Assembly: GCA_024280395.1 (NCBI GenBank)
Contig: JAJRQG010000007.1
Span: 1 to 64,000, forward strand
From: Gammaproteobacteria bacterium
Lineage (GTDB): Bacteria > Pseudomonadota > Gammaproteobacteria > Xanthomonadales > Marinicellaceae
Length of the DNA: 64,000 nt
Direction of reading: 5' to 3'
Part shown: piece after piece, positions 2,572-39,526 of the stretch
How the letters are laid out: each line of letters opens with the position of its first letter
Numbering within the stretch: position 1 is the stretch's first letter
Notes under the pieces: model-generated
What the model saw: only the letters and a program-made list of their open reading frames with translations
Told to the model about the DNA's origin: nothing
Databases searched by the model: none
Position numbers and translations under genes: made by a program

Positions 2572-5500
2572 ATGCAAAAACATAGTCTCAATACAGTAAT
2601 AATTGGCCTCTTATTTCTTTTAATGACAACAATATGTCAATCATTTGAAAAACCTTCTGCTTATGCCCCCTTATCACAGAGCGCCTTTCAAAAAATAGAC
2701 ACAACCGGTTTTAATAAAAAAAACAACAGCATAGTTTTACCTTTAAGCCACAAGAAAAGTGCTTTATTTACCATTCTTAGAAGATACAAACATAGCAATG
2801 GTGACACCAGTATTCAAGGTCAGTTAGCAGACAACAAAGGTCATATTTCAGCCACTATTGGCAACGGCAGTATTTTTGGACAAATGCATATTGGCAAAAC
2901 CCATTATATTCTTACTACCGAAGGAACGGGAAGTTTTGTCATTGAACTCCCTCAATCAGGACTAAATTTTAATGGGTGTGGTTTTGATCATACAAACAAC
3001 AATGACAGCAAGATAGCAACTATTTCAAATCAGAACGAAACCTCAAAAGCAGACAAAACCGTTATTGATTTTCTTGTATTGTACAGTCAAGGAATTGTTG
3101 ACAGATATCCAGGGGACCTACTTGAAACTCGCTTAAATCAGTATTTCAATATAAGCAATCAAGTATTTGCCAATTCGAATGTAAACCTCAGTATAAGACT
3201 TGTTGCTACTAAACAAACCTCCTACGAACCTTTTAATTCAAATCTTGAAGCCAGAAATCATTTACAGTTAAGTCTTTCAGGGGTTAATATTTCTGGGCTC
3301 GAAACAGTCAAACAAGACAGAGAATTGTATGGGGCAGATATGGTGGTACTTATTCGTCCTCACAATATGGACACACGAGGCAATTGTGGTATAGCTTTTT
3401 TTCCAACCACCAATACTGACGGATTGGGTTATAATCCCAGTTACGGAGTACATATCATGAGTGATGGCATGAGTAGCTGGTCAATTTGCACTGATCAATT
3501 ACTTGTTCATGAACTGGGCCATAATTTAGGGGCCGGCCATCATAACGTTACAGCTCCACAAAGATTTATGCCAGCAGCAGCAGGTTTTGCTAAATTAGGG
3601 CAATTTACTACCGTTATGGGCTCTTTTGGCACCGGACAAGCAGAAAGATTTTTAGAAATCAACGTTTTTTCCAACCCCAATATTCTCTGCGGTGGAGTGG
3701 CCTGTGGATCACAAGTGGACTTTAACAATGTTAATGTGATCAACCAAATGAAGGACATTGTTGCCAATTATCAACCCAGTATTTCTACACTGCCCATCCC
3801 TGAATTTAACAAAGTAAATTCTGATCAAGATTCTGATGGAGTCAGTGATTGGGAAGACCCTTTTCCATTTGACCCAACAGAAACCAATGATTCAGACAAT
3901 GATGGTGTTGGAGACAATGTTGATGTGTTTCCATCAAATGCATCTGAAGCTTATGACTTTGACAATGATGGTCTTGGTAACAATGAAGACAATGACGATG
4001 ACAATGATGGTATTGAAGATTTTTTAGATCTATTTCCATTTAATCCATCTGAAACTGAAGATACAGATTTTGATGGTGTTGGTGACAACAGTGATTTGTT
4101 TCCCAATAACAACGCCGAACAACAAGACTTTGATCTAGACGGAATTGGTGATAATTTAGACAACGATGATGACAATGATACATATATTGACCTAGACAGC
4201 AGCGCTCAAGATTTACTTGTTATCAATACTGGTAACAACCAAATTCTTAGAATTGATGCACAAACTGGCGATTCACACGGCATAGAAATTTTGTCTACTG
4301 AAGGACTGTTGACTTACCAGTCTGACTTAACCTATCGTCAAGAATCTCAAATTTTGTTGTATACCAGTTCAAGTAGCATTAAAAGACTTAATTTAATGAC
4401 CAGAGAAGCTTTAGGGTTATTTATACCTCCCTATGATCATTTAGAGGGCGCGAATATTGGTACAGGATTTCCTACCAGCTTAAGTAGCATAAATAACGGG
4501 AAGTCTTTAGCCATAACTAGATTAAACAATCCTAGAGTATTAATAACTAAAGGGCAAGAGAAAGCTTTTTTTGATTATTCTTACGATTGGGGTTTGGCAT
4601 TTGGTGCCAGGCCAATTGATATTGTTTCTCTCGAAGAAAACAGCTACATTTTAGACAAAACAGGTTTTTTGTATGTTTCAAGTTCTCCATCAACAATTGA
4701 ACTCATTGAAACTACAAGAGGTCTATTTCAAAACTGGTTTGATAAACCATTCGCCCTTGCAATTAACGCCAACAATACACTATACGTTACCAATCAAAAC
4801 TCGAATTCCGTTGGTACAGTTAATATGGATGACGGATCAGTTACGGAAGTTTTTATTGATCTGGAGAATCATGGCTATTCAAATCCAACAGGTATAGTCG
4901 TTACAAATAATAACATTCTTTTGGTTGCTGCCCACGATCAAAATGCTGTTCTAAAGTTTAATGCAGAAACGGGCGAATATTTAGGCGTGTTGCTCAAAAG
5001 CAATGGTCTAGATAACCCACACAAAATGATTTTGGTTCCTAAACTTAACGATCGATTTCATCACGATGCCACCAAAGTAATCAAACCCAATGCAGGACTA
5101 TGGTATAACCCAGAAACCAATGGTAGAGGATTTGATATACAAGTATTCAACAACAGATTATCTGTTATTTGGTATACTTTTGATGATGAAGGGTTGCCTA
5201 CTTGGTATATCAGCTCAGGCGATTTAAATGGCTTTGAATATACAGGTAACTTTGACAAAACCCATTTGAATCCTGACGGTTCTTTTTCACTAGAAAATGT
5301 GGGGACTATTTCCATTGAATTCAGCGATGAAAGAAATGCACAGATAAACTGGCAAATTAACAACGTTCAAGGATCCGAAGCCATTCAATGGTTGGTCTGG
5401 AGCTATGCCGAAGAAATTGAAAATTATACAGGATTATGGGGACGCCCTGATGGGCCTGGGTGGGGTGTTTCTATTGCTACAATTGGTCAGACTTCTATTG

Positions 5501-6638: not shown

Positions 6639-7011
6639 TATCAATCATTTGTATGGTTAGTTCTTCTACTTCTTTGGCAATTTCTGCTAATCGCGGATCA
6701 GTTGATAAAACTGTCAGCATTTTTTCAGGTTTAATCATGCCAATCTTGGTCTGGTCATTCTCTGTAAATACAGAAATTCGACAAGGCAACGCGGTATTCA
6801 GAGTCATGTCAATGGACAAAACTTTTGCTGCTTGCTTTGGGTTACATACTTCTAGCACTTTACAATCTTCTGTGAACTCGATGCCTTTTGATCTCAAAGT
6901 TCCACCCAAATCATGGATGTGTAAAACACCGAATTGTAGGTTTATTACTTCATTTTCTAGATCTTTTACTGCAGTTTCAAAATCTTTAGAAGTGTTAACT
7001 ATATAGTACAT
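6628..7011 (-). CDS. DUF302 family protein
   Basis: 127 residues from ATG 7011, chosen because AGGA lies six bases upstream and the DUF302 domain starts at MYYIVNTSKDFETAV; a longer frame to 7068 has no such support. Conserved DUF302 features include GVLHIHDLGGTLRSKG, EVCNPKQAAKVL and LPCRISVF. DUF302 proteins are small alpha/beta proteins of unknown biochemical role, often found near redox or envelope-stress genes. No signal peptide or membrane segment is seen from this start. It is the first gene of a two-gene operon with the SDR. Confidence 0.88.
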   Translation of the reverse strand: MYYIVNTSKDFETAVKDLENEVINLQFGVLHIHDLGGTLRSKGIEFTEDCKVLEVCNPKQAAKVLSIDMTLNTALPCRISVFTENDQTKIGMIKPEKMLTVLSTDPRLAEIAKEVEELTIQMIDNAK

Positions 7012-7286
7012 GATTAATCCTATTGTGAACAATGTGGTGATTTTATCGGTATATTTCTCAATTGCCAATCAATTATGCCCTGTTTTTGAAACAAAGTATT
7101 AACTTCAAATTTCAGTTATGCCAAACTTAATGAGAGGACAATACGCATTAAATAACAACCTGAGAGCAGGCGCAACAGGCATTGTATTCTCACCCCATTG
7201 CGGTTACAGTTTGAGATACTACCCCTTTTAGCTTTTATGAATTTTCTATAACAAAGTTACAATTAAGGGTGATATCAAAACATACA

Positions 7287-8819
7287 TTAAGTAAGTTGTT
7301 GCTTGTGCATAGAATAAATCCACCGTGCGTAATAAAACATACCGATGCAAGTGATGACACCTATACCGCCCATTATGTACCAGACCACACCTATATTATG
7401 TGAATCATATAAAGTTTGAGTCAGCTGGGAAGCAGGCAATTGGGTAAATTCAACCAATTTGTCAAATGCTTCGCCTTGGGGGATTTGTTCTACCAAATTT
7501 TGCGCCATGCCTTTATCAACCAGTAAATCGCGCGAGAAAACGTCTTTAGATGCAAAAGCATGGTAAAGAGAAGGACCTATTTTAGCTTCCAATGTCCAAC
7601 CAATACCAAGCGGCAATTGGGTAAAACCCAAGTACATAGCCGTTTTGTCTGGTGGCGCGATATTACCTATAAACTCAGAACTTTTTGGACTGGATAGCAT
7701 TTCACCCACTGAGAAGATAAGGATGCTAATCACCATGAACCAAGCCCAATTAAATGATCCTATCAAGAATAGTGCAGCTGTTGCTAACATAGTACCAACC
7801 AGCATCGAGGTGGGTGCACGCATTTTGGCACTCAAGGCTGCAAATAGAAAACAAGTAATCATTATCAAACCAGCATTAAGGTTCAAAAGACCCTCAGGGC
7901 TGATACTTTGGTCTGTATTCATGCCTAACAGAAAATGCCAGGCGGAACTGGTCGTTCCTGCTGGCCCGAAAAGATCCTGAATAATTGTGCTGGTGTCTAC
8001 CCAGTCATCAATGTGAGCTGGCAATACATCGAATAATGCATTGAACATAAACCAGAATCCTGAAAATATAATCATGTAGTATATCAAAACTGGGTTTTTT
8101 AACTCATGCAGAGCTTCTTTCCATAGTGGTTCATTGATTTCTCCGGACTCTTTTTTACGTTTGGCTTCATCAAGACGTTTCTGTTTACCAGGCTCTTTAT
8201 ACATCAATAGAAACAAGAAATTAATACTAATAATTCCGGCACAGGCAAAAAATACGTTTTCCCAAGCCAAAAGTCTTAACTGTGCAGCGACCAATGGACC
8301 CATCCATCCACCAATGTTGACGGTTTGGTAGAAAACCCCCCAGGCCATTGAGCTGTTTTTTCGATTGGTTGTTTTAACCAAAGTACCCTGAATACCTGGT
8401 TTGAAAATACCCGTACCTGTCGCGAGAACAATCGCACCGGCAAAAAATCCCCAGTAGGTAGGGAAGAATCCCATAATAAGGTATCCGATTATTTTTATTA
8501 CTGTTGATGCAAAAATGGTCTGTTTGTAGCCATATCGATCAGAAAGACCTCCTGTAAAAACAGGTATAAAACTCTGAAGAAGAGCCCAAACCATCAAGAT
8601 GGTACCAAATTCGTTGAGGTTTATGCCAAGACCTCCCTTGGAAACAGGGTCTTTAGCATACAGTGTTGCGGTTGCTTTTACTCCATAATATGCCAGTCGT
8701 TCAACCAGTTCCATGCCGCCACAAATCCAGAAAACATAGCTCAAGCTTGCCAAAGCTGCAAACAGGCCAAGCTGTTTTGTATCGTTTGTACTGACCATTT
8801 TATCGTTGTGTTCTGTCAT
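7287..8819 (-). CDS. POT/PTR2-type major facilitator transporter
   Basis: 510 residues from ATG 8819, preceded by AGGGG at ideal distance (a GTG at 8831 lies inside that ribosome site and is rejected). About 12 or more hydrophobic segments. It carries the POT signature ExxER followed by YYG (E37, E40, R41), the MFS loop GGLSDRYGYK and GIFKPGIQG, as in proton-coupled oligopeptide transporters. Predicted inner-membrane proton symporter; peptide substrate inferred from family, not shown. It differs clearly from the other POT gene at 9192 and diverges from it across a 372-base gap with palindromic repeats. Confidence 0.85.
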   Translation of the reverse strand: MTEHNDKMVSTNDTKQLGLFAALASLSYVFWICGGMELVERLAYYGVKATATLYAKDPVSKGGLGINLNEFGTILMVWALLQSFIPVFTGGLSDRYGYKQTIFASTVIKIIGYLIMGFFPTYWGFFAGAIVLATGTGIFKPGIQGTLVKTTNRKNSSMAWGVFYQTVNIGGWMGPLVAAQLRLLAWENVFFACAGIISINFLFLLMYKEPGKQKRLDEAKRKKESGEINEPLWKEALHELKNPVLIYYMIIFSGFWFMFNALFDVLPAHIDDWVDTSTIIQDLFGPAGTTSSAWHFLLGMNTDQSISPEGLLNLNAGLIMITCFLFAALSAKMRAPTSMLVGTMLATAALFLIGSFNWAWFMVISILIFSVGEMLSSPKSSEFIGNIAPPDKTAMYLGFTQLPLGIGWTLEAKIGPSLYHAFASKDVFSRDLLVDKGMAQNLVEQIPQGEAFDKLVEFTQLPASQLTQTLYDSHNIGVVWYIMGGIGVITCIGMFYYARWIYSMHKQQLT

Positions 8820-9047
8820 ATATCCCCTCACCCAAATTTAAGTGTAAAAAAGCATACCTGTTCACATAAAAAATGTAAATCTTTTTATCACAATATGAGT
8901 TTGATTCTTTAAGCATCACCTCTGTACTATTTTAATAGACTGTTAATTAGATAGAGCTATTTTGATTTAAAATTTTAAGCAGAAACTAAACTGGTTGCTA
9001 GTTTGATAATATTTGCACTTACATCATATTTATTAACCTACATGGTT

Positions 9048-9067
9048 ATTCCCGTGTAGGCAAGAAT
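9048..9067. repeat. REP-like palindrome, copy 1
   Basis: ATTCCCGTGTAGGCAAGAAT has the layout of the widespread ATTCCCGC-xx-GGCGGGAAT intergenic palindrome. One arm has decayed. A second related palindrome follows 40 bases later. Confidence 0.55.
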
Positions 9068-9108
9068 CCATTTACTATAAGATAGTTATTTGCTACTATG
9101 GGTCGTTT

Positions 9109-9126
9109 TTCTCACGTAAGTGGGAA
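9109..9126. repeat. REP-like palindrome, copy 2
   Basis: TTCTCAC-GTAA-GTGGGAA forms a 7-bp stem with one G-T pair, in the same family as the element at 9048. Both lie upstream of the rightward POT gene. Confidence 0.55.
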
Positions 9127-9191
9127 TCAATTTTTTAAGCTTGAAAGGCAATGAGCTTAGCAATAGATAATTTATTTTAAAGGGGACATTT

Positions 9192-11432
9192 ATGACAACA
9201 GAAACAACTAGCACCAATGCCTTTGACAATGGAGACCTGTTATGGGGACATCCTAAAGGGCTTTATGTGTGTTTTGCAACCGAGCTTTGGGAGCGTTTTT
9301 CCTTTTATGGAATGAAGTTCTTATTACTTTTATACCTCACAAAATACCATTTGTTTTCCGATATCGGTGGCTTGAATGTTGTGGGTTCTTACGCTGGTTT
9401 GGTTTATGCTTTACCTTTGATTGGAGGCATATTGGCCGATAGGTATTTGGGTATGCGTAAAGCCGTTATCTTTGGCGGTATCTTATTGGTACTGGGGCAT
9501 TTGTTGATGGCGGTTGAAGGTACGCAAGCATCAAGGGTGGCAGGGGAAGTTGTTAGAGATGCCAATGCCATAAATATTTTCTATTTAGCATTATCCTTAA
9601 TTGTTGTAGGTGTCGGATTTTTAAAACCAAATATTTCTACCATTGTTGGAAAGCTCTACCCTGAAAATGATCCGCGTCGTGATGCTGGTTTTACCATTTT
9701 TTATCAAGGCATTAATATTGGTTCTTTTGTTGCGACCATCATTTGTGCTTGGTTAGGCGAAACTTATGGTTGGAGTTATGGTTTTGGAGCTGCTGGAATG
9801 GGCATGTTAATTGGCCTTATTACTTTTATCTGGGGCCAAAAATATTTGTATGGCCATGCTGAAGCCAAAAACCCTGAAATTCTGAAAGAATCTTTCATAG
9901 GCCCTATCAATAAGGAATGGGGCATTTATATTGTTTCAATATTATCCTTGGCTGTCGTTTGGGTATTGGTACAAAAAATTGCTGTGGTGTTCTTCACTCA
10001 AAATATTTTCTTAGTGGGTTCTATTATTGGCTTGGTTTTCTATTCCATGTTTTATAAAAATGATGAGCATGACAAAGGTATGGCAAAAATATTTGCTATC
10101 ATTTTGTCAATACTGGGAATTATTACCATGTTAAGTGTCACAACTGACCATTTTCCTGATTCAATTTTTGCTTCAGTGGGTTTCTTTAAAAGCATCACGG
10201 AATATATGGTTCCTCTTGCATGGGTTTTATTTGGCTCAGTCGCTGGGTTTATTGCTTATGGCTTTATGATGACTAAACATGAAGAGTATTCGCGTATGGT
10301 GGTGTTAATTATATTAATTACATCTACGATTGTGTTTTGGGCATTATTTGAACAGTCCGCAGGTTCTATGACCTTGTTTGCAGATCGGGTTGTAGATAGA
10401 AGAATTGTTAATGCTACACTGGGCGCTGCTGATATGTGGAAATTCTACGTATTGGGTGCGGCATTTATTGTACTCTCCCTGTGGGGCTTTTTATCCGCCA
10501 ATAAACACCGTAAAGTACATAGTGGTAGCATGAAAGTTATTACCACTCCTGCAGGAATAATTATCGCTCTTGTAGCTGTTCTTGGCCTAGCAAACTTTGC
10601 TTATAACAGTGGGATGCACTGGATTGCTAGTCTTTCTTATTTGGGTATATTTATTTTGTTATTGGTCTCGGTTATAATTGCTATATCATTGGCTTTTATC
10701 TTAATAGGGTTCTTTTATTCAAGCGATAAAAGCAATGAAATATCAGCCACGGATTCTAATGGGACAGCAGCCAGTTTAAGCGCCTTTGCTGTGACTCTAA
10801 TAATGTTAGGTGTCGGTATTATTTACTATGGAATTTCTAATTTTGGTTCACTTGCACCAGGAGAATTGAAGCCCATAATTTTTGAACCAACAGCGGGTCA
10901 ATTTGGAGCATTAAATGCCTTGTTTATCTTTACATTGGCACCAGTTTTTGCCGCCTTATGGATTAAATTAGGAAAAGTAAACCTTGATCCATCCACTCCA
11001 GTTAAATTTAGTTTGGGATTAATTCAAGTAGGGTTAGGATTTGGTGCATTAATTTTAGGCGCTATGTTCCCTGGAGAGTCGGGTAAAGTGGCGTGGTTAT
11101 GGTTAGCTTTAGCTTATCTTATCCATACAACTGCGGAATTAAGCTTGTCTCCGGTAGGTTTGTCTGCGGTAACCAAACTTTCCATTAAGAGTGTAGTTTC
11201 GATGGTTATGGGTGTTTGGTTTTTGGCAACTGCATTGTCTGAAGTGGTTGCTGCTTTGTTGGCTAAAATTGCCGCACTTGATGTTGAAGAGTTAAACACT
11301 TTAGGAGTTGCCGAACAATTAGATAAATACAATGAATTGTGGATGACCCTGATTTATTTGGGAGTCGGCTTTGGTTTATTTTTATTATTGATGTCTCCCT
11401 TCTTGAAAAAAGGCATGAAGGGCATACATTAA
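9192..11432 (+). CDS. Proton-dependent oligopeptide transporter (POT family), long form
   Basis: 746 residues. The N-terminal half is typical POT: GLYVCFATELWERFSFYG (E31, E34, R35 of ExxER), GGILADRYLGMRKA and FLKPNISTIVGKLY. Bacterial DtpA-like proteins are usually near 500 residues; this one has extra transmembrane segments in the middle and C-terminal half, as in long POT proteins of other marine gammaproteobacteria. Predicted to import di/tripeptides with protons across the inner membrane. The start is supported by AAAGGGG about six bases upstream, and the gene ends at a strong intrinsic terminator. Confidence 0.93.
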   Translation: MTTETTSTNAFDNGDLLWGHPKGLYVCFATELWERFSFYGMKFLLLLYLTKYHLFSDIGGLNVVGSYAGLVYALPLIGGILADRYLGMRKAVIFGGILLVLGHLLMAVEGTQASRVAGEVVRDANAINIFYLALSLIVVGVGFLKPNISTIVGKLYPENDPRRDAGFTIFYQGINIGSFVATIICAWLGETYGWSYGFGAAGMGMLIGLITFIWGQKYLYGHAEAKNPEILKESFIGPINKEWGIYIVSILSLAVVWVLVQKIAVVFFTQNIFLVGSIIGLVFYSMFYKNDEHDKGMAKIFAIILSILGIITMLSVTTDHFPDSIFASVGFFKSITEYMVPLAWVLFGSVAGFIAYGFMMTKHEEYSRMVVLIILITSTIVFWALFEQSAGSMTLFADRVVDRRIVNATLGAADMWKFYVLGAAFIVLSLWGFLSANKHRKVHSGSMKVITTPAGIIIALVAVLGLANFAYNSGMHWIASLSYLGIFILLLVSVIIAISLAFILIGFFYSSDKSNEISATDSNGTAASLSAFAVTLIMLGVGIIYYGISNFGSLAPGELKPIIFEPTAGQFGALNALFIFTLAPVFAALWIKLGKVNLDPSTPVKFSLGLIQVGLGFGALILGAMFPGESGKVAWLWLALAYLIHTTAELSLSPVGLSAVTKLSIKSVVSMVMGVWFLATALSEVVAALLAKIAALDVEELNTLGVAEQLDKYNELWMTLIYLGVGFGLFLLLMSPFLKKGMKGIH

Positions 11433-11529: not shown

Positions 11530-11814
11530 ATGCCATTTTATACTTACCAAGCAGCCACTGAAGAATATTGTGACAAATGTCGTGATAGCTTTGATATTTT
11601 GCAACGCATGGATGCAGAAGCATTAATTATGTGCCCCGAGTGTAGCAATAAAGTTAAAAAAGTTATTTCTGCGCCCAATGTTGTTTCAGGCAAAGCGCAT
11701 TTAACAACCGATAAAACAGCGGAGAAAAAAGGCTTTACCAAATACAAACGCGCTGGTAAAGGTGTTTATGAAAAAGTTGCCGGCAAAGGGCCTAAGTATA
11801 TTTCTGGGGATTAA
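11530..11814 (+). CDS. FmdB-family zinc-ribbon protein
   Basis: 94 residues opening MPFYTYQA, with four cysteines in two CxxC knuckles (C14/C17 and C35/C38), the FmdB/CxxC_CXXC_SSSS zinc-ribbon pattern. The C-terminal half is Lys/Gly-rich and probably disordered (about residues 50-94). FmdB was named after a presumed regulator in formamidase clusters, but the molecular role is not established. It is convergent with rsmA, with only ten bases between the stops. Confidence 0.85.
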   Translation: MPFYTYQAATEEYCDKCRDSFDILQRMDAEALIMCPECSNKVKKVISAPNVVSGKAHLTTDKTAEKKGFTKYKRAGKGVYEKVAGKGPKYISGD

Positions 11815-11824
11815 TGATTTTTAA

Positions 11825-12622
11825 TCATTTTGCAGGCGAGCCGCCCGCGCTCCCATATGCATTTGTCAAATTCACATAATCTGCAACACTTAAAGTTTCT
11901 GGTCGAGCTTTGGGATCAATTCCCACCTCAATTAATTGTTGTTCTGTGATAATCTTCTTTAAGTTGTTTTTAATGGTTTTGCGTCTTTGGGCAAAAGATT
12001 GTTTAACCAGTGACTCCATGGCTTTTAAATCTACTTTTGCAGGACTCTCTCGGGTAGTTAACCTAATGATTTGTGAATCTACTTTGGGCCTTGGATAAAA
12101 AGCCTCTGGTGGTACGATAAACAATTCTTCACAATCAAAAGCATATTGCAACATGACGCTTAGTCTTCCATAAGCTTTAACACCAGCAGGCGCACAAATC
12201 CTTTTAACCACTTCTTTTTGTAACATAAAGACCATGTCTTTGATTTTATCAGCCTGGTATAGAAAACTGATTAGCAATGGTGTCGATATATTATAAGGAA
12301 GATTGCCAATTATTCGGGTATTGCTATCAGGAACGGTCCATTCTAGAGCATCTTTGTGGTGAATGGTTACGTTACCTTTCATATCAAACTTAACTTGTAA
12401 TCTGGGCACCAAGTCATTGTCAATTTCAATTAAGTTTAAATCATCGGTATATTCAACCAAATGTTCGGTTAAAGCGGCATGTCCAGGCCCAATTTCATAG
12501 ACTGTATCTGTTTTTTGCGGATTAAAGGCATTGACGATTCTTTCTATTACCGATTGGTCTTGTAGAAAATTTTGTCCGAATTTTTTTTTGGCCTTTAGTG
12601 GCTTATATTGCTTATCACCCAT
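11825..12622 (-). CDS. rsmA: 16S rRNA dimethyladenosine transferase RsmA (KsgA)
   Basis: 265 residues, normal length. It dimethylates two adjacent adenines in the terminal hairpin of 16S rRNA during small-subunit maturation, using S-adenosylmethionine. The SAM-binding motif is EIGPGHAALT (from residue 43) and the catalytic motif is NLPYNIS (from residue 107); the N-terminus has the typical KKFGQNFL. The start overlaps the end of pdxA by eight bases. It is the last gene of lptD-surA-pdxA-rsmA, an order conserved in gammaproteobacteria; the usual following apaG/apaH are absent here. Confidence 0.97.
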   Translation of the reverse strand: MGDKQYKPLKAKKKFGQNFLQDQSVIERIVNAFNPQKTDTVYEIGPGHAALTEHLVEYTDDLNLIEIDNDLVPRLQVKFDMKGNVTIHHKDALEWTVPDSNTRIIGNLPYNISTPLLISFLYQADKIKDMVFMLQKEVVKRICAPAGVKAYGRLSVMLQYAFDCEELFIVPPEAFYPRPKVDSQIIRLTTRESPAKVDLKAMESLVKQSFAQRRKTIKNNLKKIITEQQLIEVGIDPKARPETLSVADYVNLTNAYGSAGGSPAK

Positions 12623-31649: not shown

Positions 31650-34600
31650 TCAACCCTCAAAACTGCTATTGAATATTACCCCGAGACTATTAGCACAAGA
31701 TTGAATCTTGATATCATCGATATCCCATCCATCAAATCCGACCGCTGTATCCGTCACTAGACGAAAACGAATTACAACGTCTTGATTTGCATAATCATCG
31801 AGATTAATAATTGACTCAATATAGGCTTGAGGATTACCACACCAAGCATTTTGACCGGCCAAAAGACTACTTGATTGTAGAGAGCCATCGTAAGGGTCAG
31901 TTAACAACTTCTCACTGGCAACAGGAACGAAGGAAAGGCCCCCGTCGGTTGAAATTTCTAATAATCCGCCATCCCAACAAGCTACTTCAGCGTTCGCTTC
32001 CATATCTTGTGCGTTATTAAAGTGCAGTGTCAGCGTATTGTTGCCAGCGGGCAGGTAAATGGTTGGAGATGTCAGCACTGTATCTGATTGACGTGACACA
32101 TCAGGTATACGCCAATGTTGAATGCCTGTATCTGGGTTGATATTGGAAAGAAGCCAGTTGTTGCTTCCTACAATAGCAGTTGAACTCCACCCTTGGGCCC
32201 CATTTTCGAAATCATAATTAACCAATATCGTAGCGCTCATGCCTGTTTCGCACTGGCCAGGCAAAGGGGCTGAAACAAAAATCCTTGTCAGTGATATGTT
32301 TCCACTGCCACAGATATTTTGAGTGGTTACCCGCCAATAGTAATTAGTTTCTGGCAATAAAGAAAGGCTTGAAACATAGCTTGATGCATGGGTGATTTGA
32401 GACTCTACAATAGTATTAAATGCAGGATCCGTGGACAATTCAAATAAATAGGATGAACTTCGTTGAACTGCCTGCCATTTAAAAGTCCGTGAAATTGTCG
32501 ATACCCGCGAAACATTGGTACCAGGCATAGTTAATTGTGTAGGCTGGGGAACCCCATCAACAACTGTCAAGTTTAAAGCAGTTGTAGAAACCAAACTGGC
32601 ATCCAGACTATCTGTAGCAATGACGGTCATTGAATAATTGTTTTCAGCAACATTATTAGTTAAATTTGATATCAATACCTGGCTGGAATCAACTGGGTTA
32701 ATAACTGGATTGATAGAAAAATCACAAGAGGCGGATGTTGGACATCCCAATACAGATAAATTTGTTGTTGCTGTGAAGCTCCCTGTTAAGTTTAAATCAA
32801 AAGTGGCCTGATTATTTACAGTACACACCGATTGAGTTGGATTATTGACAACTACAGCAACACAATCAGGGAAATTAAATGCACCAATTCTTGTATTCCA
32901 GCTGTTATTCCCTGTCGTTTGTATGTATTGCGCAGACATCCAAAACCGGCAATCATCAACTGGATCAACATTCATAGACGAGTAATCTCCCCATCTAAAA
33001 GTAGAGGTTTGTACTCCTGTTGCTTCCATTAATGTGGATTCGTTGCGCATTTGACCCAAGGGTTCATTTACTCGCCGAGATGTAAATCGAATACCCGGAT
33101 TGACATTATTGGCACCCCCCAGAACATTGTAAACCATACCAATGTCACCTTGTCCATTCATGGCAATACTTGACATCCACCTGTGGCTATCATCTGGAGC
33201 ATAACTGCCTTGCTGCTGTAAGTACCATTGCCCTGATCCACTTCTTCGCATTTCAAACCATCGTGGTGCTGCATGGTCACCGGCTTGGTCACCATCCGCC
33301 AATGTATCTATTGCCCAACTTCCCAATAAACTTTCATGGGTGCCAAAATTTCGATAGACAAACCGTTGCATTGGCCACCATGAGCCTGAATCGATTTTTG
33401 TTGTGGTTCCTAATTGCGGCAAACAACTGCGTGAAAACAATCCACATACAGTCCAATTAAATTCAGCTATTTCGGGTGGTTGAAAACTTTTAATAAGGTT
33501 AAAGCTAGACTGAGATGGCACATCCCAGTTGACCTTAAATTCATACAAATCTATGGAGTCCGCCAATGGAGGAGGATCTGAAAAGTAACTTTCACCCGCA
33601 TCAATCATGGTATAAAACAAGCCGCCTGAACCCGTAGAGGGGATCAAACTTCCGTCACTGTCTGCAGGCAATAAAAAGTTGGCATAACCTTGGAAAAACT
33701 GCGCCGGACGCGCTGGCAACCCAGAAAGAAGAGATAATCTATCTATTGCATATACGTCATAACCATTGGGTGCACCTGAATTTGTACCCATAAAATAAGC
33801 ATTGTTTTGAGTATCTGGCCACACCCCAAGTTTGTAATAATCAGGATGTCTTTGCGTCATTAATTCATAGAGATAATATGTCCCCAAAGGATCGGAGCTA
33901 GTGGAAATTGCAAAACATACACTCTGTGCACCGTTAATGGCAAATTGACTCAGCAGAAACCTGTCGGCTTGTTGGTCGTACAAAACAATGGCATCCCCGT
34001 TGTTGTGTTCTTCACAATTCCCACCAAAACCTTGCCACAAAGAGTTGGTAGCAAACGGACCCGCCAACATGCTTCCCTGCTTATCAAAGACCGCAAATGC
34101 CAAATTTACCATTTGCACATAATGGTTAATTCCTACTGCACCAGATACATCTGCTGGCGAGCTTTGCCCCAATTTATTTATGCCTTCAAAATTGACAGAA
34201 GTCGCCGGAGTATTGTCTATCAGTATGCGGTTTATTTTTGATGCTAACGCTAGTTCATCTTTGTTACCGTTTCGGTTCTGGGTTCCATACCTTCTGCCTT
34301 TTTTATCGAATGCTATCTGCTGTTGTTTTTCAAACACTTCTTGAGTCGATTGTGAAGACTGTTTTACACGGGATAAACCAGATACTGGCAGACTGAGAAT
34401 GGGGCCTTTTATGGGCAAAATAAAGGCATTGTTTTTTCTGGTATTTGTCTTTGTTGACAACATGGGTTCGAGAACTGATGACTGAATAGCAAATGTGGCC
34501 GAATTGTGATTAGCTTCCTTTATCGAATTCATTGATGGACTCATTGAAAGAGTACTTGAAGATTGTTCAGCCTTTGCAGTTTTGATTTTAATTAAGGGAA

Positions 34601-34901
34601 AATAAACTTGATTATTAACTTTAATCTCTAAATTAAATTCGCCATGCGTTTGGCTGATTTTTGAAATCACATTAGGATTATTTCCACCGATTCTTAAATT
34701 AATCACCCCCTTCTTGATAACAGTATTAGAAAACAACTCTTTAAATATTTCTTTGTTCTCATTATCAATCAACCTGATCGCAATTGAAAACTCTCCATCT
34801 AAATTATTTTTATTTACATCATGAATCAATCCTGAATATTCAATGTGGGCTTGAACTTGAAAGTAAATAAGCTGCAAGATGAGAAACAAAAAAAACCGCA
34901 T
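31650..34901 (-). CDS. Large secreted multidomain protein, function unknown
   Basis: 1083 residues with a signal peptide (about 1-18, ending VQA). The N-terminal 110 residues look like a beta-sandwich (GEFSIAIRLID). A long central region (about 220-690) has propeller-like sequence including AVGINHYVQMVN and DRFLLSQFAI. About 700-880 look like Ig/fibronectin modules, and about 890-1070 a jellyroll ending GFDGWDIDDIKI, common in secreted gammaproteobacterial proteins. The last residues are IFNSSFEG. No catalytic motif. Likely surface-associated or secreted. Single gene with its own ribosome site (GGAAGATGG overlaps the ATG weakly). Confidence 0.75.
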   Translation of the reverse strand: MRFFLFLILQLIYFQVQAHIEYSGLIHDVNKNNLDGEFSIAIRLIDNENKEIFKELFSNTVIKKGVINLRIGGNNPNVISKISQTHGEFNLEIKVNNQVYFPLIKIKTAKAEQSSSTLSMSPSMNSIKEANHNSATFAIQSSVLEPMLSTKTNTRKNNAFILPIKGPILSLPVSGLSRVKQSSQSTQEVFEKQQQIAFDKKGRRYGTQNRNGNKDELALASKINRILIDNTPATSVNFEGINKLGQSSPADVSGAVGINHYVQMVNLAFAVFDKQGSMLAGPFATNSLWQGFGGNCEEHNNGDAIVLYDQQADRFLLSQFAINGAQSVCFAISTSSDPLGTYYLYELMTQRHPDYYKLGVWPDTQNNAYFMGTNSGAPNGYDVYAIDRLSLLSGLPARPAQFFQGYANFLLPADSDGSLIPSTGSGGLFYTMIDAGESYFSDPPPLADSIDLYEFKVNWDVPSQSSFNLIKSFQPPEIAEFNWTVCGLFSRSCLPQLGTTTKIDSGSWWPMQRFVYRNFGTHESLLGSWAIDTLADGDQAGDHAAPRWFEMRRSGSGQWYLQQQGSYAPDDSHRWMSSIAMNGQGDIGMVYNVLGGANNVNPGIRFTSRRVNEPLGQMRNESTLMEATGVQTSTFRWGDYSSMNVDPVDDCRFWMSAQYIQTTGNNSWNTRIGAFNFPDCVAVVVNNPTQSVCTVNNQATFDLNLTGSFTATTNLSVLGCPTSASCDFSINPVINPVDSSQVLISNLTNNVAENNYSMTVIATDSLDASLVSTTALNLTVVDGVPQPTQLTMPGTNVSRVSTISRTFKWQAVQRSSSYLFELSTDPAFNTIVESQITHASSYVSSLSLLPETNYYWRVTTQNICGSGNISLTRIFVSAPLPGQCETGMSATILVNYDFENGAQGWSSTAIVGSNNWLLSNINPDTGIQHWRIPDVSRQSDTVLTSPTIYLPAGNNTLTLHFNNAQDMEANAEVACWDGGLLEISTDGGLSFVPVASEKLLTDPYDGSLQSSSLLAGQNAWCGNPQAYIESIINLDDYANQDVVIRFRLVTDTAVGFDGWDIDDIKIQSCANSLGVIFNSSFEG

Positions 34902-35590: not shown

Positions 35591-36178
35591 CTAAAATTCC
35601 ATGTACATTTTTTCTTCATCTAACTTTTTACTCCAAGGAAGGTTGGATTTTTTCCAACCTTTGAGGCTTTGATTTGTAGGGTTGTTTTTATCAACAGGAT
35701 TGGTTCCTTCAAAACCGTCAACAATACTATATATTTGTTTATAACCTACTTGTGCCAATAAGTTTGTCGCGCCAGAACTGCGGTTTCCCGAGCGGCATAT
35801 CAAGATGACTGTTGAATCTTTATTCAAACCATGTTCAGCGATGTATTCATTAAAATAAGGTAAAAAATTACTATTGGGAAACAATTTGAAATTGTGTTTC
35901 TTCTCGTCCCATTCATCCCAGTCACCGACTGTCATATAAGGAATATTCGCATCAACTCCTGTCGCCATACCCAAAAAAGCAACCTCTGCACGGGTTCTTA
36001 CATCAATAAAAACAATGCCTTGATTTTCGTTGAGCATTTTATATGCTTCATTAGCGGTCAAATACAAACCCAATGTTGTTTGTTTTTGTGTTTGGCTTGG
36101 TTCAATTGCAGCTGTTACTTGGTGATCAATACAAAGTAATGCGATTATCTGTATAAATATTAATATTCGGAAATTCAT
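35591..36178 (-). CDS. Exported rhodanese-domain sulfurtransferase
   Basis: 195 residues with a signal peptide (about 1-23, ending TAA). One rhodanese domain with strand IVFIDVRTRAEV and the active-site loop CRSGNRS (nucleophile Cys), plus the C-terminal GFEGTNP and WKKSNLPWS, a pattern seen in periplasmic rhodaneses. It would carry sulfane sulfur in the periplasm. It lies downstream of the dsrE-porin pair but behind a terminator (36203-36243), so it is expressed by read-through or its own promoter. Confidence 0.9.
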   Translation of the reverse strand: MNFRILIFIQIIALLCIDHQVTAAIEPSQTQKQTTLGLYLTANEAYKMLNENQGIVFIDVRTRAEVAFLGMATGVDANIPYMTVGDWDEWDEKKHNFKLFPNSNFLPYFNEYIAEHGLNKDSTVILICRSGNRSSGATNLLAQVGYKQIYSIVDGFEGTNPVDKNNPTNQSLKGWKKSNLPWSKKLDEEKMYMEF

Positions 36179-36202: not shown

Positions 36203-36243
36203 TAAAAAATAAAGCCTGTCATTGTTAATCATAACAGGCTTTA
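36203..36243 (-). terminator. Rho-independent terminator after the porin gene
   Basis: On the minus strand AAAGCCTGT (36242-36234) pairs with ACAGGCTTT (36219-36211), followed by ATTTTTT. It separates the porin from the rhodanese gene. Confidence 0.88.
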
Positions 36244-36261
36244 TTCATAGAGCAATCTTCT

Positions 36262-37647
36262 TTAGAAGATATGTAGAATTTGGAAGGTTAAACGATTATC
36301 CATGCCGTCCAATATTTTATTGGCATTGGAATCATTGGCCTGATTGGGAGCTTCTGCATCACGGAATTCAAAGTTGAAGATAGCACGTGTTTTCTTCGAA
36401 AAGAAATACTGTGCACCGACTGCAAAAGTTGTAAATGTTCTTTCTGGATCTCCACCGCCAGCTGGGTCTACGCCACCTGGAGCCCCAAGACCTTCTGTGC
36501 CATTATTCAATACATCATAACGCGCTGCCAATTCAAGTTTTGGCATCACTTTATAACCAAAATCAAGTTGATAACCATTGGATTTATTGTCTGTTAAATA
36601 ATTTAGAGAGGCTGTACGTAAATTGGCCACTGGAATATTCGGATTATTTGCCAAAGTACCTGGAACAGCTCCACCCTCAGAGCCATTGAAAATCATACCA
36701 TCAGCCCAAACATATTCAGCTGAAAAACGAACTTTGTTCTTTCTATAAGTTGTTCCAATGCCATATCTTTTGCGATCAAATTCTTGATATTTTTCAACCC
36801 CATTAACATAACGAAGAGTTCTTTTTCCATCAATTAACCATGCATAAGTTTTAAAACCCGGTCTTCTTGGACCACGTCCACCATACACTTTTTCAGTTGA
36901 TAGTAAAATATACACATCTTTGTTGCTGTCATTGTCTGCACGAGAAATACCATTTCCGTTACCTAGCATAACCGCATAAGTAAACTCGCGATTTTTATCG
37001 TTTGTAAAGGTATTAAATACTTGTACACCTACATCACGAAATGCCCCTACAGGACCATTTAAGCCATTGGCTACATCATTTGTGCCTCCAGCACCATTTG
37101 GACGAAGGCCATTATTGCCATCGGTAAAACGTTCCAACAACAATCTATCGGTAGCATTAGAAAAACGATTCCAATCAAAGATATGAATCGCTTTTTGCGC
37201 TTCATTGCCCTGTGGAGACTTAAATTGACCAAAACGAATATGCATGTTTTTTATGTAGTTCAATGTAACGCTGGCATCCGTCAATTGCGGGCCATCTTTT
37301 ACGGTAATACCATTACTTCCAAATTCAGTTAAGAAGAAGTAATTGATTTTATTGTAATCCCATTGACCACGAACACCCAAACGTGCGCGGAAAACGTTGA
37401 AAGTTGAGTTGGTCGCATTCTTAGGCAAAATTTGGTTAAATGCTGCTTCTTGTCCAGCATATGGACCAGCTTTTAATTCAGAGCCATCGGTATAGGCATA
37501 TTCAGGCTCTAAGAAGCCCCAAATTTTTACTGCATTTTCTTTCTTTACCATTTCTAGACCTTGTAATGAAACCCAGTCCACTGCAAAACTATATTGGCTA
37601 GCCAGAATAAGTGTGCCAATTAAGGCCATCTGTATTTTTCTTTTCAT
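36262..37647 (-). CDS. Outer-membrane porin, phosphate-selective porin O/P type
   Basis: 461 residues with a signal peptide (about 1-22, ending SFA) and alternating amphipathic strands through to a C-terminal aromatic-rich strand (LTFQILHIF). The segment FNVFRARLGVRGQWDYNKINYFFLTEFG and HIRFGQFKSPQG match the OprO/OprP porin family. The solute cannot be told from sequence; no Pho box precedes it. It follows the DsrE gene by 19 bases with a strong GGGGAG ribosome site, so it belongs to the ECF-controlled operon. Confidence 0.85.
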   Translation of the reverse strand: MKRKIQMALIGTLILASQYSFAVDWVSLQGLEMVKKENAVKIWGFLEPEYAYTDGSELKAGPYAGQEAAFNQILPKNATNSTFNVFRARLGVRGQWDYNKINYFFLTEFGSNGITVKDGPQLTDASVTLNYIKNMHIRFGQFKSPQGNEAQKAIHIFDWNRFSNATDRLLLERFTDGNNGLRPNGAGGTNDVANGLNGPVGAFRDVGVQVFNTFTNDKNREFTYAVMLGNGNGISRADNDSNKDVYILLSTEKVYGGRGPRRPGFKTYAWLIDGKRTLRYVNGVEKYQEFDRKRYGIGTTYRKNKVRFSAEYVWADGMIFNGSEGGAVPGTLANNPNIPVANLRTASLNYLTDNKSNGYQLDFGYKVMPKLELAARYDVLNNGTEGLGAPGGVDPAGGGDPERTFTTFAVGAQYFFSKKTRAIFNFEFRDAEAPNQANDSNANKILDGMDNRLTFQILHIF

Positions 37648-37666: not shown

Positions 37667-38104
37667 TTATGGTTTAATTAATGTATAGCCTTGATCAATC
37701 AAGTCCATAATTCGTACAACTCCGCCTGGTACAACGACTGAGTTTTGGTGTAAAGCAGGCTTTTTACCCATTTTTTTGGTCATTTTTGCCAGTGTATTCG
37801 CACAGGCACTAAATGTTACACCATTTGATGCCAAGCTAATGATACGTGGCGATGAAATTTCATTGTTCTCAAACATTAATTTTAAGCCTGAGCTAAATGC
37901 CACAATTTCGATTTTTATATTGTCTGGCCCATAATGTTTCATTAAGTTATTGGCTACATTTAGCACCAATTGTTGACGGCTGGTATCGCTGATTTGTAAT
38001 ACCACATGTTTTTCTGCAAAATCATCTTCTGCAAACAATGCAAAAGAACTTAACAACGTTAATAGCAACACTAAAAGCATGCCAAATTTATTGTTTTTAA
38101 CCAT
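37667..38104 (-). CDS. Exported DsrE-family protein
   Basis: 145 residues with a signal peptide (about 1-25). The mature part is a DsrE/DsrF-like alpha/beta domain: VVLQISDTSRQQL, IEIVAFSSGLKLM, the Cys segment FSACANTL and VVPGGVVRIMDLIDQGYTLI. DsrE-like proteins act as sulfur carriers or sensors through the conserved Cys. The same pattern recurs in the anti-sigma factor at 38819. GGGAG precedes the ATG. It is the first gene of a porin operon driven by a promoter element shared with the divergent sigma-factor gene. Confidence 0.85.
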   Translation of the reverse strand: MVKNNKFGMLLVLLLTLLSSFALFAEDDFAEKHVVLQISDTSRQQLVLNVANNLMKHYGPDNIKIEIVAFSSGLKLMFENNEISSPRIISLASNGVTFSACANTLAKMTKKMGKKPALHQNSVVVPGGVVRIMDLIDQGYTLIKP

Positions 38105-38161
38105 TTTATTTCTCCCAATTAAAAATTAATTGAACCAGTGAATACACGATTCATGACAGTC

Positions 38162-38188
38162 AGATGTTCTAAGCAGAAGATTTATTCC
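38162..38188 (-). promoter_or_regulatory. Candidate ECF-sigma promoter for dsrE-porin
   Basis: On the minus strand GGAATAAA (38188-38181), 12 bases, AACATCT (38168-38162). It repeats the element before the sigma-factor gene with identical spacing. GGAA is a usual ECF minus-35 core. Leader to the ATG is about 50 bases. Confidence 0.8.
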
Positions 38189-38216
38189 CTTTATTTCGTT
38201 TTTTTTTAATTTGTAT

Positions 38217-38243
38217 GGAATAAAATCGAGATGTATAACATCT
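38217..38243 (+). promoter_or_regulatory. Candidate ECF-sigma promoter for its own operon
   Basis: GGAATAAA (38217-38224), 12 bases, AACATCT (38237-38243), matching the divergent promoter base for base in both boxes. Predicted autoregulation by the sigma factor starting at 38266. Confidence 0.8.
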
Positions 38244-38265
38244 TACAGGTACAATTGGAGTGACT

Positions 38266-38817
38266 ATGTTAAAAATATTTTACAAAAAGAAACTAGAACA
38301 TAAACTGGCTGAACTAAGACCTCGCCTGTACAGATTAGCCGTGTCTTGGTGCTCAGATGCTATGTTGGCAGACGATCTTGTTCAAGACACCATGAGCAAA
38401 GCTTTGAACAATCATCACCAACTCAAAGATTTTTCTGTCATTAATGCTTGGCTATTTAAAATATTGCACAATTGTTGGATGCAACATCTGCGTTCCAAGA
38501 AGCCTTCCATGGACATAGACAATATAGAGTTACTTAGCAATCAATCCCCTGAAAAACAGTTATCAGAGATGCACATAGTTGACCGAGTGAGAAAAGCAGT
38601 TGAAATGTTGCCTCTCAACCAAAGACAAGTGATTACCTTAGTTGATCTTGAAGAAAACAGCTATGTTCAAGTTTCTGAAATATTAGACATTCCCATTGGC
38701 ACGGTTATGAGCAGATTAAACCGAGCCAGAAAACAATTAAAGAGCCGGCTAATTGGCATCAACCTTGAATCTTCCAATGGCTCTATTCCACAAAAACATT
38801 TAAAGAGGTTAGTATAA
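38266..38817 (+). CDS. ECF-type RNA polymerase sigma factor
   Basis: 183 residues from ATG 38266, five bases after GGAG; a GTG at 38260 is part of that ribosome site. Region 2 has RLYRLAVSWCSD...ADDLVQDTMSKAL and AWLFKILHNCWMQHLR; region 4 has MLPLNQRQVITLVDLEENSY and the helix-turn-helix IPIGTVMSRLNRARKQLK. It directs RNA polymerase to GGAAT-type promoters, here probably its own and the divergent dsrE promoter. One base separates it from the anti-sigma gene, so both are cotranscribed and co-translated. Confidence 0.95.
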   Translation: MLKIFYKKKLEHKLAELRPRLYRLAVSWCSDAMLADDLVQDTMSKALNNHHQLKDFSVINAWLFKILHNCWMQHLRSKKPSMDIDNIELLSNQSPEKQLSEMHIVDRVRKAVEMLPLNQRQVITLVDLEENSYVQVSEILDIPIGTVMSRLNRARKQLKSRLIGINLESSNGSIPQKHLKRLV

Positions 38818-38818
38818 C

Positions 38819-39526
38819 ATGGACAATATGAACCCAGAAAACAACAAAACCCAAGAGATGCTCAATGCCTTGGCAGATGGTCAGTTACCAGCACATGAAA
38901 GAGAGAAAATTCTTTCTATGATAGACAAAGATCCAAAATTGAGTGATGATGTCTGTGAAATTTACCGCATTAAGGACTTGGTTAAAACAGCCTATCCACT
39001 TGATAGTTTTTCAGCTAAACCCAAAACACTATTTGTATCAAAATTTGGTTTTACTATCAAAGTTGCCAGCTACTTCTTTGCTTTTCTTCTAACTTTAAGC
39101 AGTGGTTATTTTTTAGCTGATTATAAACAAAATCAACCCGATAATGACAATCAAATTGCAACTGTACAGAAAAACAAAGTCATCGTATTTTTAAGCTCTT
39201 CTGAACCAGCAAAGCTAACACAAGCACTTTATCAAGCTGAAACCTTGGCGCAAGAGCACCAAAAAACCAATGGTGAAGTCTATGTTGTTACTAGCGCTGA
39301 AGGGTTGGAATTGTTGAACAAAACCACAACACCTTATGAACAAAAAATACTAGAACTAAGTAACCAATACCCATCATTGAAATTTATTGCTTGCAACAAC
39401 TCTATGTATATCAGGAAAAAACAAGGTAAGCCAGTCGACTTAATTGCCAGCGCTGAAGTGGTTCCTTCAGCTGTTGATTTTGTTGCTTCTCATCTTTTGA
39501 AAGGTTGGCAATACGTTTCTATTTAA
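38819..39526 (+). CDS. Membrane anti-sigma factor with a DsrE-like periplasmic domain
   Basis: 235 residues. The N-terminal 70 form a cytoplasmic anti-sigma helix bundle (MLNALADGQLPAHEREKIL), without the full HxxxCxxC zinc motif. One membrane helix lies at about 78-100. The rest (about 118-235) aligns by eye with the adjacent exported DsrE: VIVFLSSSEPAKL/VVLQISDTSRQQL, FIACNNSM/FSACANTL, VVPSAVDFV/VVPGGVVRI and LLKGWQYVSI/LIDQGYTLIK. The conserved Cys is kept. I infer that this domain senses a sulfur species or the DsrE protein and releases the sigma factor. AGAGG precedes the ATG. Confidence 0.8.
   Translation: MDNMNPENNKTQEMLNALADGQLPAHEREKILSMIDKDPKLSDDVCEIYRIKDLVKTAYPLDSFSAKPKTLFVSKFGFTIKVASYFFAFLLTLSSGYFLADYKQNQPDNDNQIATVQKNKVIVFLSSSEPAKLTQALYQAETLAQEHQKTNGEVYVVTSAEGLELLNKTTTPYEQKILELSNQYPSLKFIACNNSMYIRKKQGKPVDLIASAEVVPSAVDFVASHLLKGWQYVSI

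Follow-up and report, generated by a model that had tools for sequence, protein, structure and literature searches.

An ECF sigma/anti-sigma pair whose anti-sigma factor ends in a DsrE-fold domain, a probable sulfur-responsive switch in Gammaproteobacteria

The locus considered here lies in a window of 64,000 nucleotides (the whole stretch of DNA that was analysed, namely positions 1 to 64,000 of contig JAJRQG010000007.1 of a member of the Marinicellaceae) and consists of two divergent groups of genes. On the forward strand, an ECF sigma factor (38266..38817) is followed, one base past its stop codon, by the gene of a 235 aa transmembrane anti-sigma factor with a C-terminal DsrE-like domain (38819..39526), an order that is kept in relatives. 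On the reverse strand can be found an exported DsrE-like protein of 145 aa with a signal peptide and a sole cysteine, Cys101 (37667..38104; codon 37804-37802), an outer-membrane porin of 461 aa (36262..37647) and an exported rhodanese with a CRSGNRS active-site loop (35591..36178; Pfam Rhodanese, 1e-10). All these parts had been listed in a first-pass annotation of the DNA, and all were recovered at the places it gave. PADLOC returned only weak CARF-like and restriction-enzyme matches.

The sigma reading frame is open from GTG 38260 (38260-38817, +), ATG 38266 being the likelier start because a GGAG ribosome site stands just before it. The protein has regions 2 and 4 only (Pfam Sigma70_r2, 6e-11; Sigma70_r4_2, 2.8e-14), scores 78.7 bits against the sigma70-ECF model TIGR02937 (cut-off 42.9), and its best relatives in the PDB are ECF sigma factors, e.g., SigH, SigW, and SigE. 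Its partner begins with a cytoplasmic domain (aa 1-62; 38819..39004, +) that is weakly recognised as an anti-sigma domain of the RseA/MucA kind: with a profile of 19 homologues searched against 177,635 PDB sequences, the top three matches were MucA, an RseA and E. coli RseA, at weak E-values (0.013, 0.026, and 0.2), while zf-HC2 is weakly matched in 15/19 members and RseA_N, again weakly, in 7/19. Three helices are predicted for this part of the structure, and its binding of the sigma factor is assumed from gene adjacency and by analogy. Assignment to the zinc-binding anti-sigma factors (ZAS) was rejected, as the HxxxCxxC motif is absent from the window protein, whose only cysteines are Cys46 and Cys192; nor was the motif found in homologues A1 or A3. 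Cys46, in the cytoplasmic domain (codon 38954-38956), is retained in 32/40 homologues and is possibly a second redox point. A single transmembrane helix is predicted at aa 80-102 (39056..39124, +), with the N-terminus placed in the cytoplasm by the positive-inside rule: the hydropathy maximum covers aa 76-100, with KPKTLFVSKFGFTIK ahead of it and DYKQNQPDNDNQ behind, and the helix is flanked by lysines on its N-terminal side and aspartates on its C-terminal side.

Regarding the periplasmic end of the anti-sigma factor (aa 118-235; 39170..39523, +), the first-pass annotation had aligned it by eye with the exported DsrE, conserved cysteine included, and this alignment proved right. In BLASTP, residues 123-233 of the anti-sigma factor share 24% identity with the exported protein over 112 columns (E 4e-7), and Cys192 (FIACNNSM; codon 39392-39394) is aligned with Cys101 (FSACANTL). 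As single sequences the two proteins score 20.4 and 19.0 bits, respectively, against Pfam DsrE, slightly under its curated cut-off of 22.7, which is a detection threshold and no biological property. With a profile built from nine anti-sigma homologues, hmmsearch of the PDB retrieves MTH1491 (1L1S) at E 8.8e-15 and ST0148 (2PD2) at E 8.6e-5. The structure predicted for residues 118-235, which the same annotation had put forward for a fold comparison, is an alpha/beta domain with a pLDDT of about 90, and the comparison returned DsrE, not another fold: the ten top chains all belong to the DsrE superfamily (Z 9.9-15.1, against 6.9 for the best unrelated chain), 1L1S coming first with Z 15.1 and an rmsd of 2.9 over 111 residues, and further matches include YchN (11.8), the DsrE of DsrEFH (11.5) and TusD (11.3). 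The C-terminal domain is thus, by profile and structural model, of the DsrE fold with its active-site cysteine conserved, and the description of the locus as an ECF sigma/anti-sigma pair in which the anti-sigma factor ends in such a periplasmic domain holds. Among 40 aligned homologues, Cys192 is invariant (40/40), as are Gly162, Leu208, Trp230, Tyr232, Asp20, and Gly96. In a tree of DsrE domains, those of the anti-sigma factors form one clade (38/38, support 0.995) apart from the exported DsrE; a single clade points to one old fusion that has been kept, and the separation of the clades indicates that the two kinds of domain diverged long ago.

The exported DsrE itself matches Pfam DsrE at 0.0017, and its predicted structure (pLDDT 91) gives the same list of matches as the anti-sigma domain, with 1L1S at Z 19.3 and an rmsd of 1.5; Cys101 is invariant in 30/30 of its relatives. 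The porin of the window has no match in a Pfam search, and it was identified through a homologue in locus L025 (48% identity), which matches Porin_O_P at 1.5e-7. The rhodanese had also been drawn into the circuit, and this is the weakest part of the earlier proposal: the gene is indeed present beside the porin, but the adjacency is seen only in two members of the same genus (the window and G024/L002), and a terminator-like hairpin with a 16-pair stem and a T-rich tail lies 3' of the porin gene (36207..36246, -), so that the rhodanese may be a separate transcription unit. Several secreted proteins of this genus share a similar C-terminal tail (..VFSSGFE, ..IFNSGFE, ..VYKDGFE, ..VFSDGFE, ..IFNSSFEG), found in the window at 31650-34901 (-) and in L002 at 359-916, 2901-4319, 8338-9684, and 11609-12460; the ..GFE-type tail is perhaps a C-terminal sorting signal.

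Within its own family, the full-length anti-sigma factor can be found in one other genome only, G024 (locus L002, Lysobacterales bacterium 355-202). It is present in 9/299 genomes of the order sample and in 66/369 genomes of the class sample, spread over 41 families, and a phylum-wide sample added two further full-length matches, both from the same class. No relative was found in viral contigs. Plasmid matches from Azospirillum and Indioceanicola were set aside as solo exported DsrE proteins with no sigma gene adjoining. An apparent fusion of the sigma and anti-sigma genes in L029 was likewise discarded, its 436-aa frame being a chance upstream extension of the anti-sigma frame in which nothing matches a sigma factor.

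The co-occurrence of the pair with dsrE in relatives, suggested earlier as a check, was examined, and the genes do occur together. The exported dsrE gene and the sigma gene run divergently in the window, in 8/8 order-level loci and in 21 of the 28 evaluable class-level loci (30/37 in total), nearly always together with the porin; the conserved divergence of the two gene groups is therefore borne out in most of the loci examined. Loci L077 and L089 have the porin and no adjacent exported DsrE, so that the latter is not strictly needed there, and L084, L092, L096, and L100 have neither beside the pair. That the trigger is the two DsrE proteins competing with, or passing sulfur to, each other had been suggested earlier and is conjectural, the two clades having long been separate and an adjacent exported partner being absent from a few loci such as L077 and L089.

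Sulfur genes recur around the pair in relatives. The genes soxYZAXB, or the end of that operon, abut the locus in L028, L030, L031, and L076, where a second exported DsrE and a solute-binding protein also adjoin the pair and a thioredoxin gene comes after the porin, itself followed in L028, L031, and L076 by a YeeE/YedE sulfur transporter. In L097, soxYZAB lies directly downstream, and in L148 a sox operon encloses the pair. In this last locus, soxZ and the pair have a near-identical copy of soxY on either side (6824-7294 and 9046-9516, -); the two copies agree at 469/471 bases and are followed by 100 bases without a difference, so that a recent duplication is suggested. Tandem double pairs of sigma and DsrE-bearing anti-sigma genes, with an adjoining DsrE gene, can be found in L101 and L103 (6569-9523 and 6560-9446, respectively, -).

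Two putative ECF-type promoters of the form GGAATAA-N15-CATCT face away from each other in the intergenic region of the window, one ahead of the sigma/anti-sigma operon (38217..38243, +) and one ahead of the dsrE-porin unit (38162..38188, -); these are the two matches in the window, against 0.02 expected by chance. The motif was found by two-box word enumeration in 24 divergent intergenic regions. Of these, 10 carry GGAAT-N17-CGTCT ahead of sigma and 6 carry GGAAT-N17-CATCT ahead of dsrE, compared with word counts of 2-3 at most in shuffled regions. Best sites matching 11 or 12 of 12 positions are present on the sigma side in 19 and on the dsrE side in 13 of the 24 regions, against 0.2% in shuffled ones. 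The presence of GGAATAA-N15-CRTCT ahead of sigma, in the window as in relatives, is what would be expected of an autoregulated ECF-type promoter. Over the whole 3.77-Mb genome, the strict pattern has three sites, of which two are those of the locus; the third (G000:C84:12005-12031) is antisense inside a TonB-receptor gene and, given this place, was discounted as probably due to chance.

Across genomes, box sites average 2.45 in the 11 that carry the anti-sigma factor and 0.45 in the 20 that lack it (p 7e-6), the reversed pattern used as a control giving 0.2-0.36. Sox operons that begin with a cytochrome c gene have the box ahead of them (G199, G094, G463, G377), as do genes of YeeE transporters (G419, G422), of a thioredoxin (G422) and of an exported DsrE (G424), and these targets constitute independent evidence, since the motif was learned from the intergenic regions only; behind the remaining box sites of the genomes with sulfur targets there is no evident sulfur gene. 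The box is absent from the soxB and soxYZ loci of the window's own genome, and the regulon predicted there is consequently the DsrE/sigma locus only. In L031, three copies of the sigma-type box, spaced 80 bp apart, precede the sox operon (1981, 2061, and 2141, +), the first two with CGCCT instead of CGTCT; as far as the sequence tells, this is a small tandem duplication of the promoter region.

The distribution of the anti-sigma factor follows that of sulfur oxidation. SoxB (TIGR04486) is found in 65/66 genomes of the class sample with the anti-sigma factor versus 86/303 without it (Fisher 9e-29), and in 9/9 versus 23/290 in the order sample (6e-10), fragments of SoxB at the ends of contigs being included; as these genomes share ancestry, the p-values overstate independence, and the 41 families are the fairer measure of breadth. 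Sox regulation can do without the anti-sigma factor, as is shown by the 86 genomes in which SoxB occurs and the anti-sigma factor does not. In the genome of the window, soxB lies on contig C46, and soxYZ on contig C90 has a molybdopterin oxidoreductase and a cytochrome c, SoxCD-like, as neighbours. The connection with sulfur, first proposed from the window by itself, is made firmer by the SoxB association, by the same promoter box at sulfur genes and by the sox operon of L148.

The overall plan is that of a common ECF sigma/anti-sigma pair, set apart by a new, putative DsrE sensor domain and a conserved sulfur regulon. The closest parallel is offered by RseA and MucA with sigma-E/AlgU, which likewise combine a cotranscribed ECF sigma factor with a single-pass anti-sigma factor having a short cytoplasmic part (in the window protein, the weakly recognised anti-sigma domain) and a periplasmic sensor part, a GGAA-type promoter, predicted to be autoregulated in the window pair, being common to them. 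In contrast to RseA/MucA, the periplasmic part is here a DsrE fold whose single cysteine is invariant, an RseB-like partner is not seen beside the window anti-sigma gene, and the predicted regulon of the window type concerns sulfur metabolism rather than envelope repair. As for the DsrE/TusD/YchN superfamily (PF02635; MTH1491, 1L1S; ST0148, 2PD2), the likeness lies in the fold and in the position of the conserved cysteine, whereas known members are soluble and mostly cytoplasmic and the window domain forms the C-terminal, periplasmic part of an anti-sigma factor.

ECF sigma factors that control sulfur oxidation have been described elsewhere. In Sinorhizobium meliloti, the sulfite-responsive RpoE1 and RpoE4 (ECF26) control sulfur oxidation (sorT), have putative anti-sigma genes adjacent to them and are active upon metabolism of thiosulfate or taurine (PMC3511301). 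They resemble the window pair as ECF sigma factors with an adjacent putative anti-sigma gene and a connection with sulfur oxidation; unlike it, they are alphaproteobacterial and target a sulfite dehydrogenase, and in the excerpted text of that report no DsrE domain is given for their anti-sigma factors (PMC3511301). In Arcobacter butzleri, ECF sigma-2 (AB1044) activates the sox operon according to transcriptomics and an activity assay, but the organism belongs to the Campylobacterota, the regulon is broad (nap, nrf, hydrogenase) and DsrE is unmentioned in the excerpts of the source (PMC3445524). The first-pass annotation knew of no anti-sigma factor of such architecture, and in the main texts of the open-access literature, as distinct from supplements, no description of a DsrE-bearing one was found.

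The circuit is best read as a sulfur-responsive anti-sigma switch, a reading to which a probability of roughly 70% can be given. The architecture, the fold, the promoters, the target genes and the association with SoxB are results of computation; for what triggers the switch, how Cys192 reacts, how sigma is released and what the exported DsrE and the porin do, the following course can be inferred. The ECF sigma factor would be held at the inner membrane by the anti-sigma N-terminus, with the DsrE domain in the periplasm, where reduced sulfur would load or modify Cys192; the candidate signal is sulfane sulfur, coming from thiosulfate, polysulfide, or an intermediate bound to SoxY or DsrE. A change of state in the DsrE domain would then cause the anti-sigma domain to free sigma, either through a conformational change or through proteolysis, and freed sigma with RNA polymerase would transcribe its own operon and the dsrE-porin unit, as well as sox and transport genes in relatives. 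The porin would admit the substrate, while the exported DsrE might carry or buffer sulfur, perhaps feeding back on the sensor. Whether the pair represents, in its most specific form, a widespread and undescribed family of transmembrane anti-sigma factors of the Gammaproteobacteria (in the GTDB sense) that senses sulfane sulfur directly via persulfidation of Cys192 and, by way of a dedicated ECF sigma factor, controls sox, sulfur transport and the exported DsrE-porin unit is a matter of about even odds.

It can also be hypothesized that the DsrE domain serves for docking or oligomerisation, without sensing sulfur itself, and that the exported DsrE, bound to it as sulfur carrier or detector in mixed oligomers, decides on the release of sigma. 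Solved members of the DsrE superfamily are multimers, the TusBCD and DsrEFH heterohexamers are among the structural matches obtained here, and an exported DsrE-fold protein that keeps its single cysteine without exception is divergently encoded in most evaluable loci. Yet mere docking would have no need of the anti-sigma factor's own cysteine, which is kept throughout the aligned homologues, nor is it easily reconciled with the loci that retain the porin only (L077, L089) or neither neighbour (L084, L092, L096, L100), and this explanation is considered unlikely. Less likely still is a Cys192 that responds to oxidants, to electrophiles or to metals or metalloids that bind thiols, the sulfur genes then serving in repair or detoxification: one reactive cysteine can report many signals, but the targets predicted in relatives are genes of sulfur oxidation and sulfur transport, with no stress genes among them, and the host range tracks SoxB.

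Regulation by phosphate comes to mind from the window itself, where phoB, phoU and pst genes follow directly on one side, and from the porin, whose homologue matches Porin_O_P and whose family includes phosphate-selective porins. In G024/L002, however, the same five genes have unrelated genes on either side and no pho genes in their vicinity, so that the proximity is incidental; as the module moves without these neighbours, and other relatives have sox genes beside it, a phosphate circuit was rejected as highly improbable. That the resemblance to DsrE is superficial and the neighbourhood a product of close kinship, as single-sequence Pfam scores under the cut-off could suggest, is refuted by the profile and structure matches, with which the 41 families, the promoters and the cysteine all agree, leaving chance or artefact a negligible prospect.

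To our knowledge, little is understood of the extracytoplasmic sensing of reduced sulfur in chemolithotrophs. Known regulators of sox genes are cytoplasmic repressors or two-component systems, a CsoR-family sox regulator reportedly being found in Thermus. Read as a sulfur-responsive switch, the pair probably represents an undescribed route of sulfur sensing in many sulfur-oxidising bacteria. If this is true, a membrane anti-sigma factor with a sulfur-carrier fold would provide a direct path from periplasmic sulfur chemistry to transcription, in a system made tractable by one cysteine, one promoter box and a small regulon, from which a sulfur-responsive promoter system for synthetic biology could possibly be derived. 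It would also assign a likely role to the porin and the exported DsrE that recur in many sulfur oxidisers.
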